The notes under the pieces: model-generated
Database searches by the model: none
What the model was told of the DNA's origin: nothing
Seen by the model: the letters and a program-made list of their open reading frames with translations, nothing else
Shown: positions 36,027 through 38,003 of the stretch, one piece after another
Numbering within the stretch: the first letter of the stretch is position 1
Layout: each line of letters begins with the position of its first letter
Assembly (NCBI RefSeq): GCF_022810305.1
Contig: NZ_JALGQH010000001.1
Coordinates: 1 to 64,000 of the forward strand
DNA from: Rhodococcus sp. ARC_M6
GTDB lineage: Bacteria > Actinomycetota > Actinomycetes > Mycobacteriales > Mycobacteriaceae
DNA length: 64,000 nucleotides
Direction of reading: 5' to 3'
Position numbers and translations under genes: made by a program

Positions 36027-36050
36027 CATGTCGAAGGGTTCATGTACTCT
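36023..36050 (+). promoter_or_regulatory. Promoter of the riboswitch transcript
   Basis: GTGACA (36023-36028), a 16-bp spacer and TACTCT (36045-36050). Transcription would begin near 36057, the first base of the riboswitch P1 stem region. Confidence 0.55.
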
Positions 36051-36057
36051 TGGGTCA

Positions 36058-36152
36058 GCTTCACGAGATGCGGTGCCAAGCTCCGACTGGCCGCACACCA
36101 ACCCCACTGGCGTTCCGGGGTGGTTCGGATGACGAAGCGGTCCGCACCGACC
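36058..36152 (+). ncRNA. SAM-IV-like riboswitch
   Basis: The fold matches the SAM-IV architecture element by element. P1: GCTTC 36058-36062 with GAAGC 36134-36138, flanked by ACGAG and ATGAC. P2: TGCGG..GCC 36069-36078 with 36088-36095. P3: ACC-AA-CCCC 36097-36105 with GGGG-T-GGT 36117-36124. Pseudoknot: P2 loop TCCGA 36082-36086 with TCGGA 36125-36129, located directly 5' of TGACGA as in SAM-IV. A short downstream hairpin GGTC/GACC is at 36139-36152. The pseudoknot bases differ from those I remember for SAM-IV but still pair. Class call is by memory and pairing, not a covariance search. Confidence 0.75.
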
Positions 36153-36177
36153 GGTATGGGCAAGAGCGCCCCCGTCC

Positions 36178-36199
36178 GCGGCGGGCCAAGCCGCAGGAG
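36178..36199 (+). promoter_or_regulatory. Shine-Dalgarno-adjacent hairpin
   Basis: GCGGC 36178-36182 pairs with GCCGC 36190-36194, immediately followed by the ribosome site AGGAG 36195-36199 and the ATG at 36206. This is a plausible expression platform controlling translation in response to the upstream aptamer. Confidence 0.5.
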
Positions 36200-36205
36200 T
36201 TCGTA

Positions 36206-36652
36206 ATGAGTGAAAATGTGTTTGATCACGCTGAGTTGAGTCCCGAAGAGCTGCTCGATCCAGCAACCTTGGTCCCGGGAGACTTGATCGTTGCCGGGGG
36301 AGGTCGCGTCCTGGTAGTGGGATTTCCGCAGTCGCACAGGGATTCTCGGGGAAAAATTGTCTTCACCGTGGATACGGTTGCTCGCGATGAAACGGTCGGC
36401 GTCACAGTCCTCGGAGAGGAGACCGTCTGGCGCAGAGATCTTTTCGATCCCAGCAGGTACGAGTATGAGGTTGCCCCCACCCGCAGTGGTCTTCAGGAGA
36501 TCCGGGCGCTCACGAGGAACGGTGTCAAGGTCGGCGCACTCAGAAGGTCGCTGTCGGACGGCGCGATCGTCGAAATCAGTCCGGCCAGTTCATTTCATCC
36601 GTTGCACGCGTTACTTCTCGATCAGGCTCGCAGAGTGCGTACTGCGGCGTGA
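36206..36652 (+). CDS. Uncharacterised 148-residue protein under the SAM-IV-like riboswitch
   Basis: No domain recognised. The sequence begins MSENVFDHAELSPEELLDP. It has a beta-rich middle (VPGDLIVAGGGRVLVVGF, KIVFTVDTVARDETVGVTV) and a helical C terminus (HPLHALLLDQARRVRTAA), with no Cys, no signal peptide and no membrane segment. ATG at 36206 has AGGAG 6 nt upstream; the open frame back to 36023 runs through the riboswitch and is not coding. Riboswitch control would link it to methionine/SAM status, but no enzymatic motif confirms this. Confidence 0.75.
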   Translation: MSENVFDHAELSPEELLDPATLVPGDLIVAGGGRVLVVGFPQSHRDSRGKIVFTVDTVARDETVGVTVLGEETVWRRDLFDPSRYEYEVAPTRSGLQEIRALTRNGVKVGALRRSLSDGAIVEISPASSFHPLHALLLDQARRVRTAA

Positions 36653-36656
36653 CCGG

Positions 36657-36696
36657 TGGTGTCGGTACCTCCCGGAAACGGGAGGTACCGACACCA
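36657..36696. terminator. Bidirectional terminator with a GAAA tetraloop
   Basis: Perfect 18-bp stem TGGTGTCGGTACCTCCCG / CGGGAGGTACCGACACCA closed by GAAA, in the 49-bp gap between two convergent genes. Confidence 0.85.
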
Positions 36697-36701
36697 GTTC
36701 G

Positions 36702-38003
36702 TCAGACGTACTGCGAGTACGCGGGCAGATCCAGCTGACCGTTGCCGGACAAACCGATCACGATCACCTCCGGCTCGGTCGCGTTGCGTGCGTGGGCAAT
36801 TGCTCCGGCGACGGCGTGAGTCGATTCCGGTGCGGGGATGATGCCTTCGGCGCGGGCAAATACCAGCCCGGCCTGCAGTGCCTCGTCCTGGCCAACTGCA
36901 ATGGCGTCCATCAAACCGAGGTTGACAGCGTGCGAGACCATCGGCGACATGCCGTGGTAGCGCAGGCCGCCGGCGTGGATGGCCGGGGGAACAAAATCCT
37001 TGCCCAGCGTGTGCATCTTGAGCAGCGGCGTCAGGCCCGCAACGTCACCGAAGTCGTAGCGGTACTCACCCTCGGTCAGGGACGGGCACGCTGACGGCTC
37101 GCAAGCGACGAGACGAGTCTTGGTGCCCTCACGCAAATTGCGTCCGAGGAACGGGAACGTCAGACCAGCCAGGTTGGAACCTCCACCAGCACAACCGAAC
37201 ACGATGTCCGGTACGGCGTCGCCGGCCTCTTCGAGCTGAACCATTGCTTCCTGGCCGATGACGGTCTGGTGCAGCATGACGTGGTTCAGGACGGAACCGA
37301 GGGAGTAGTGGGTATTGGGATCCTGAGCAGCAACCTCGACTGCCTCACTGATCGCCATACCCAGTGAACCCGAGGTGCCGGGATGTGATTTCAGAAGCGC
37401 GCGACCAGCTTCCGTCAGATCCGACGGCGACGGATGGCAGATTCCACCGTAGGCCTCCATCTGGATACGACGGTACGGCTTCGAGTCGAAGGACGAGCGG
37501 ACCTGCCAGACCTCGACCTCGAGTCCGAGAAGAGCACCGGCGAAGGACAACGATGCACCCCACTGGCCCGCGCCCGTTTCGGTGGTGAGCTTGGTGGTTC
37601 CTTCAAGAGCGTTGTAGTACGCCTGAGCCACAGCGGTATTCGGCTTGTGCGAGCCGACGGGGCTCACGCCCTCGTACTTGTAGTAGATGCGGGCCGGCGT
37701 TCCCAGGGCGCGCTCGAGTCGGTGTGCCCGGACCAGCGGAGAGGGTCTCCACATGCCGTAGATCTCGCGGACGGTCTCCGGGATCTCGATGTACCGCTCC
37801 GTTGCCACTTCCTGCATGATGAGGCTCATCGGGAACAGCGGCGCAAGATCCTCGGGGCCCAGCGGCTCACGGGTACCGGGGTGCAAGTGCGGCGGGACGG
37901 GTTCGGGGAGGTCAGCCGCCAGGTTGTACCAGTGCGTCGGAACCTTCGACGGGATGGATACGCCCAAAGGCTCGAGCGAACGGTTGAGTGGTGTGGTGGT
38001 CAA
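36702..38003 (-). CDS. TrpB2-type tryptophan synthase beta-like enzyme
   Basis: 433-residue PLP enzyme of fold type II. The PLP lysine is in [11 protein letters not shown], the phosphate-binding loop is [11 protein letters not shown], and the C terminus has [19 protein letters not shown]. The long N-terminal extension ([22 protein letters not shown]) and the segment [15 protein letters not shown] mark the TrpB2 branch rather than the TrpA-dependent TrpB1. TTG start at 38003 is supported by AAGGAGAG upstream. No trpA or other trp gene is nearby, so stand-alone indole salvage or another beta-replacement reaction is possible. Confidence 0.85.

Follow-up and report, generated by a model that had tools for sequence, protein, structure and literature searches.

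A divergent SAM-IV riboswitch subclass in Rhodococcus and related genera precedes genes not recognisably tied to sulfur metabolism and is often placed behind promoters resembling those of a DNA damage response

What does a SAM riboswitch control when the gene behind it encodes a protein of an uncharacterised family? Feedback control of sulfur metabolism is the textbook role of SAM riboswitches, among which the SAM-IV class was reportedly introduced by Weinberg et al. in 2008. An initial annotation of a leader in Rhodococcus sp. ARC_M6, made from the letters alone, had described a SAM-IV-like element and had supposed that the protein encoded downstream might be a new member of methionine or SAM physiology. 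We analysed this locus within a stretch of 64,000 nucleotides of contig NZ_JALGQH010000001.1 (hereafter the window) and compared it with related loci in other genomes.

The aptamer itself is readily recognised. The SAM-IV model of Rfam 15 (RF00634) matches positions 36059-36172 of the forward strand with 75.2 bits against a gathering score of 38 (E 1.5e-11), SAM-IV is the best match after clan competition, and it is the sole Rfam family to reach threshold across the 64-kb window. This significant match, from the covariance-model search that the initial annotation had proposed, bears out its reading of a SAM-IV-like riboswitch before an uncharacterised protein. The Rfam alignment, which is without P4, and a check of the individual pairs place P1, P2, P3 with its AA loop and the P2-loop pseudoknot at the SAM-IV positions, much as the annotation had drawn them, and P2b is present as well (Table 1). 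One pseudoknot, PK-1, joins the P2 loop to J3/1. The other, PK-2, is the second pseudoknot that defines SAM-IV and was absent from the earlier account; it is required by the SAM-IV cryo-EM structure, with which the geometry of the window PK-2 agrees (PMC6890682).

Table 1. Features of the leader and its gene, as observed or predicted, in window coordinates
Feature	Position	Strand	Basis or remark
-26 element ATGTCGAAG, RecA-NDp/PafBC-type (putative)	36028..36036	+	6/9 of tTGTCRgtg, exact 8-nt spacing to -10 box
Predicted -10 box TACTCT (TAnnnT)	36045..36050	+	same hexamer as the RecA-NDp site before host recA
SAM-IV aptamer, divergent subclass	36058..36172	+	RF00634 75.2 bits; subclass model R1 167.5 bits (the window sequence is among those from which R1 was built)
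P1 GCUUC/GAAGC	36058-36062 with 36134-36138	+	Rfam alignment, pair check, covariation; closes core 36058..36138
P2a	36067-36074 with 36090-36096	+	Rfam alignment, pair check, covariation
P3	36097-36105 with 36117-36124, AA loop 36100-36101	+	Rfam alignment, pair check, covariation
PK-1 UCCGA:UCGGA	36082..36086 with 36125-36129	+	5/5 pairs in 39/41 subclass members
P5 hairpin	36140..36161	+	Rfam alignment, pair check; helices 5 and 6 covary
PK-2 GGCGUUC:GAGCGCC	36109..36115 (P3 loop) with 36164-36170 (3' tail)	+	7 bp, one G-U
Hairpin A GCCCCCG-UCCG-CGG-C-GGGC	36168..36186	+	-10.7 kcal/mol; candidate ON state
Hairpin B, UCCGCGGC (36175-36182) with GCCGC(A)GGA (36190-36198)	36175..36198	+	-13.4 kcal/mol; candidate OFF state
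Shine-Dalgarno AGGAG	36195..36199	+	sequence; 6 nt before ATG
Target gene, 148-aa P0001 (uncharacterised family)	36206..36652	+	orthologues in G003 and G004 have the same leader

The element therefore shares with SAM-IV the helices P1, P2a/P2b, P3 with the AA loop and P5, both pseudoknots, the pocket positions and a score above gathering. It departs from canonical SAM-IV in the sequence of P1, in pairs of P2 and P3, and in PK-1, which is CCCGG:CCGGG in canonical copies and UCCGA:UCGGA or a related version here. Two further SAM-IV copies in the host genome are canonical and score 115.7 and 107.4 bits. Folded as a single sequence, the window leader has an ordinary energy (z +1.1), as is possible for a pseudoknotted GC-rich aptamer, and support for the aptamer is thus comparative. 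The structure was taken from the Rfam-guided alignment; RNAalifold, given eight sequences, yielded a consensus in which the aptamer is misfolded. A 209-aa ORF from 36023, which would turn the aptamer into coding sequence, was rejected as a real gene because the RNA is conserved before unrelated genes and because the Shine-Dalgarno sequence and ATG fit the start of the 148-aa protein.

Relatives of the window aptamer form a subclass whose pairings are maintained by compensatory change. The aptamer core is identical in three genomes, and the search for the same leader-gene pair in relatives that the initial annotation had recommended turned it up in two more Rhodococcus genomes (G003 and G004), where the orthologous leaders keep the pairings. 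A pattern search located the divergent aptamer in 9 of 401 Mycobacteriaceae genomes, spread over four genera, and a subclass covariance model (R1) built from eight of these pattern-search aptamers found many more. Across 41 subclass aptamers aligned to the model, 93.5% of pairs are standard and 24 of the 36 pairs examined (PK-1 excluded) carry compensatory changes, with 148 cells against 41 in shuffles, in an alignment that was fitted to the model and is hence biased towards its structure. PK-1 lies outside the structure of the covariance model. Its versions are UCCGA:UCGGA (26), CCCGA:UCGGG (8), UCCGG:CCGGA (3) and UCAGA:UCUGA (1), four co-varying forms that substantiate the covariation suspected earlier from the window copy. 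For PK-2, with the register set sequence by sequence, pairing over the set is 5.0, versus 3.5 with shuffled tails and 4.8 with tails swapped between members; being barely above the swapped tails, its covariation is weak.

Most of the loci belong to a single bacterial family, so they are not independent of one another. When R1 was run over about 300 sparsely drawn genomes of the phylum, no strong member was found outside the family (best 63.7 bits). One subclass aptamer beyond the family lies on a 1.35-Mb plasmid of Arthrobacter sp. StoSoilB13 (L187; NZ_AP024648.1, 4001-4139, 85.1 bits). No subclass aptamer was found in the viral contigs or phages searched, and these searches lend no support to a phage-borne origin, which we had considered. 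A further copy (L091, G007:C1 near 4175264) is cut after the core by an apparent insertion with inverted repeats, beyond which lie a beta-propeller-like ORF and then an HDAC-like gene, about 1.6-1.8 kb away. In the literature searched, which did not extend to the founding SAM-IV paper, we found no description of the subclass, and this branch of SAM-IV is apparently undescribed so far.

The genes behind these aptamers are unlike those expected of SAM-IV. Nearly all of the 41 aptamers directly precede genes from a limited number of families: small proteins with a GHxxH motif, HDAC-like deacetylases (PF00850), the P0001 family of the window gene, an ADP_ribosyl_GH protein with a DSPc-type phosphatase region, TY-Chap3-like proteins (PF22552, just under its cut-off), a calcineurin-type phosphatase, a vWA protein (weak PF13519 match) and a few unknowns. 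At two of the loci, G340d and G225, the target was left untyped; no recognisable sulfur or methionine gene stands behind the subclass aptamers whose target was typed. An independent protein search found the aptamer directly upstream of GHxxH-family genes in 16 of 20 strong loci. By comparison, the same search recovered five canonical SAM-IV copies, each with a class V aminotransferase gene behind it, and other canonical copies precede metY and luciferase-like genes. The canonical copy on host contig C2 likewise has a class V aminotransferase downstream, and the one on C23 runs off the contig end, its counterparts in relatives preceding metY. Published SAM-IV targets include O-acetylhomoserine sulfhydrylase (PMC3774663) and cysteine desulfurase (PMC8079986). 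Thus, the proposed membership of the window protein in methionine or SAM physiology finds no support, given that the subclass targets are non-sulfur genes behind RecA-NDp/PafBC-like promoters.

Two observations concern the arrangement of these targets. Five subclass aptamers occur in the genome G340. Four of these lie inside a 22-kb stretch (L123/L122, G340:C1 1567361-1589178) and precede GHxxH, TY-Chap3-like and unknown genes, and the fifth, located elsewhere (L124), precedes an ADP-ribosylglycohydrolase gene. Two HDAC-like loci have, upstream, an N6 DNA methylase gene (L084, in G128) and a type IV restriction-like gene (L052, in G003), neighbours that hint at defence neighbourhoods.

The promoters of the subclass also differ from those of canonical SAM-IV leaders. 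A TANNNT box occurs at -13/-12 (one at -14) relative to the first aptamer base in 36 of 41 loci (shuffled mean 3.9, maximum 10), and none is found in the five canonical leaders. This position of the box suggests that transcripts begin at the 5' end of P1, which is also the first aptamer base. Upstream of the -10 box, at a spacing of 8 nt, subclass leaders carry TGTCGG or similar. The RecA-independent damage promoter (RecA-NDp) of mycobacteria has the form tTGTCRgtg-8 nt-TAnnnT (PMC5656591); its activator is PafBC, a WYL-domain protein that responds to single-stranded DNA (PMC11804915). The layout before the aptamers is the same as that of the mycobacterial RecA-NDp or P1 promoter (PMC5656591, PMC6789036, PMC11804915), and in many loci it stands directly before the aptamer. 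Matches of at least 7/9 with the exact N8 spacing are present in 15 of 41 subclass leaders (shuffled mean 0.1, maximum 2). The motif came to our notice on inspecting these sequences, but its consensus comes from the literature (PMC5656591). About one-third of the subclass promoters are without a good -26 element.

The putative -26 element of the window matches the RecA-NDp consensus at 6/9 positions and those of the two orthologous leaders at 5/9; the window match taken alone is moderate, and the pattern is strong as a set over the 41 subclass loci. The host genome has an exact RecA-NDp site before recA, with TACTCT as its -10 box, and tandem WYL genes that adjoin a tatC-like ORF. Tandem WYL genes beside tatC are the usual place of pafBC. 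It is reasonable to suggest that PafBC may control the window promoter as well. The literature searched describes no riboswitch in the leader of a PafBC promoter.

How might the aptamer act on the gene behind it? The initial annotation noted a hairpin that abuts the Shine-Dalgarno sequence. The hairpin is real, but rather than abutting this sequence it runs through it and pairs its GGA. Hairpin A overlaps both PK-2 and this SD-burying hairpin B, and A and B are mutually exclusive. With the PK-2 strand held, the pairing probabilities of the GGA are 0.98/0.98/0.87, and with that strand free they fall to 0.54/0.54/0.46, in an energy model that ignores both pseudoknots and separates the two hairpins by less than 3 kcal/mol. 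These calculations suggest that ligand binding would hide the Shine-Dalgarno sequence of the window gene. In G138, UCC:GGA of hairpin B is replaced by UUC:GAA. The expression platform is not the same in other genera.

The window gene encodes a protein, P0001, whose lack of a known domain, noted in the initial annotation, was borne out by our searches: there was no Pfam match above cut-off, no NCBIfam, PADLOC or PHROGs match, and nothing in the phage, viral-contig and plasmid searches. Its orthologues in G003 and G004 are 97% and 94% identical, and Rhodococcus sp. IEGM 1379 has a protein 94% identical to it. Three other genomes encode proteins with two or three P0001-like domains (24-46% identical). 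A subclass aptamer precedes such multi-domain relatives in G075 and G222, which represent two other genera, and in G222 a GHxxH gene lies between the aptamer and the P0001-family gene. A three-domain relative in G007 has no aptamer and adjoins WXG100 and LpqN-type genes. The P0001 profile yielded nothing below E 0.16 against PDB sequences, and Foldseek with the P0001 model gave no match below 0.001. In an AlphaFold2 model built from 11 sequences (pLDDT 86.8), residues 16-78 share the predicted fold of the N-terminal SH3-like domain of EF-P and eIF5A (EF-P domain I; Z 7.8, rmsd 2.2 over 62 residues), although the identity is only about 10% and the C-terminal half of P0001 is instead a beta-meander plus helix. 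With Z under 8, this match may reflect only a common fold arrangement, and for this reason we claim no function for P0001.

The surroundings of the window gene offer several observations of their own. The P0001 and TrpB-like genes converge on an inverted repeat (36658-36695) of 17 perfectly matched bp around a GAAA loop, which is probably a two-way transcription terminator; the same repeat yields a sub-threshold traJ-II match. The TrpB-like PLP enzyme downstream (36702-38003, minus strand) matches TIGR01415/PRK12391 above cut-off. Two genes upstream of the riboswitch lies recD (exodeoxyribonuclease V alpha, TIGR01447; 32747-34612, plus strand), another gene related to DNA damage.

Several of the subclass targets recall predicted virus-conflict systems. 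ARG-centric systems are predicted to counter viral ADP-ribosylation, and their named parts, in the portion of the source consulted, include an ADP-ribosylglycohydrolase with phosphatase, a calcineurin-type phosphatase, vWA and TY-Chap3 (Iyer et al. 2022, PMC9503650). The subclass targets include counterparts of these: the ADP_ribosyl_GH-DSP-type phosphatase fusion, the calcineurin-type phosphatase, the vWA protein and the TY-Chap3-like proteins. In addition, one subclass locus has a PDDEXK nuclease after the first gene, as in the ARG-centric systems. In that same portion, however, P0001, GHxxH and HDAC-like proteins are not among the parts listed. As regulators the paper gives Nudix or WYL repressors, with no mention of a riboswitch (PMC9503650). 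Nor did the literature searched tie any riboswitch to these conflict systems. Among the selected neighbours scanned around the window locus (recD, a membrane protein that belongs to no Pfam family, the TrpB-like enzyme and a TetR regulator), there was no ARG or other conflict gene. The conflict-system link is carried by the subclass as a whole and not by the window locus.

With respect to the ligand, the pocket positions UCANGAG, CCAACCC, GGGUGG and UGA are canonical in nearly all members of the subclass alignment, the exceptions including UGC for UGA in G128 and single changes in G340d, G197b and G077. This agreement with canonical SAM-IV favours SAM as the probable ligand. We also considered an altered pocket, but the alignment gives no indication of one. 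The third P1 pair is mostly U-A (38 of 41), where canonical SAM-IV has G-C. We take the ligand contacts of the aptamer, including this P1 pair near the sulfonium site, to be those of SAM-I structures. A second divergent SAM-IV type, found before luciferase-like monooxygenase genes (L045-L050, e.g., L045 about 2275-2388) in Rhodococcus genomes G008, G010, G011, G015, G018 and G025, has GGUGCAGAG and GAUCACACC beside the pocket in place of GGUCAUGAG and GUGAUGACC, as well as the PK-1 strand GGACCGG, and is a candidate for an altered ligand preference.

We give roughly even chances to the account in which a SAM-IV riboswitch of a non-sulfur subclass has its transcription raised by damage and its translation held off by SAM. 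The leader RNA would start at the first aptamer base, and DNA damage would raise its transcription through the RecA-NDp/PafBC-type promoter. With SAM bound, the aptamer would hold PK-2 and prevent hairpin A; hairpin B would then pair with the Shine-Dalgarno sequence, and little of the 148-aa protein would be translated. A fall in SAM would open PK-2 and let hairpin A compete with hairpin B, freeing the Shine-Dalgarno sequence, so that the protein would be produced under DNA damage combined with low SAM. The P0001 gene might then be part of a dispersed regulon that includes predicted ADP-ribose-centred conflict-system parts, and P0001 itself might have a role in conflict or damage.

Other explanations must be weighed against this account. 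Perhaps the subclass keeps the SAM-IV scaffold and senses another nucleoside ligand, such as S-adenosylhomocysteine, 5'-methylthioadenosine or an ADP-ribose-type compound. Such a ligand would fit the ADP-ribose-linked targets, a target set unlike the canonical one is a hallmark of variant classes, and the prevailing U-A pair lies beside the expected sulfonium site. However, three members of the subclass retain G-C there, and the remaining expected contacts (J1/2, AA, U and UGA) are unchanged in nearly all members, which leaves a different ligand rather unlikely in our estimation. A more conservative proposal is that this is an ordinary SAM-IV riboswitch with a housekeeping promoter, and that P0001 acts in SAM physiology as a transporter, enzyme or regulator not yet recognised as such. 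No function has been assigned to P0001, the pocket is as in canonical SAM-IV, and sulfur genes are among the published targets of the class (PMC3774663, PMC8079986). Yet no recognisable sulfur gene is found among the typed targets of the subclass to which the window aptamer belongs, the N-terminal half of P0001 resembles the SH3-like barrel of EF-P domain I and not a metabolic enzyme (in a match that may reflect only a common fold), and the subclass promoters are unlike those of canonical SAM-IV. We therefore find the proposal distinctly unlikely.

It is similarly improbable, in our view, that the platform works in reverse, with SAM turning translation on, or acts by transcription attenuation. 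Hairpin A is GC-rich and near hairpin B in energy (-10.7 and -13.4 kcal/mol), and two of the seven leaders folded (G128 and G174) favour it when the PK-2 strand is free. Against attenuation, no U run follows hairpin A, which is thus not an intrinsic terminator; against reversal, holding PK-2, presumably the bound state, raises pairing of the Shine-Dalgarno sequence, and SAM riboswitches characterised so far mostly turn expression off. The idea to which we give almost no credence is that of a chance resemblance or a decayed riboswitch. The Rfam score of 75 is indeed below those of the canonical copies in the same genome (107-116), but lower scores are general to the subclass (64.6-75.5 bits for RF00634 in the seven members tested), the core is identical in three genomes, covariation extends over several genera, and both the promoter and the target have been kept.

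Returning to the account of damage-raised transcription and SAM-repressed translation, a broader reading, which we regard as possible but still doubtful, is that the SAM-IV subclass links the SAM level to an actinobacterial regulon for DNA damage and virus conflict, with a PafBC-type damage input and an input from the loss of SAM. If this reading is true, the loss might arise, for example, from the breakdown or depletion of SAM by a phage, and the joint output would be ADP-ribose-linked and unknown proteins, including P0001. The subclass could then be the first branch of a riboswitch class devoted to immunity or stress genes, and a metabolite aptamer would have been recruited as a sensor of stress or infection. 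The common leader also provides a regulatory handle on families of unknown function, namely P0001, GHxxH and the HDAC-like/vWA cassette. Whether low SAM serves as a signal beyond sulfur starvation thereby becomes a question that can be tested directly with reporters.
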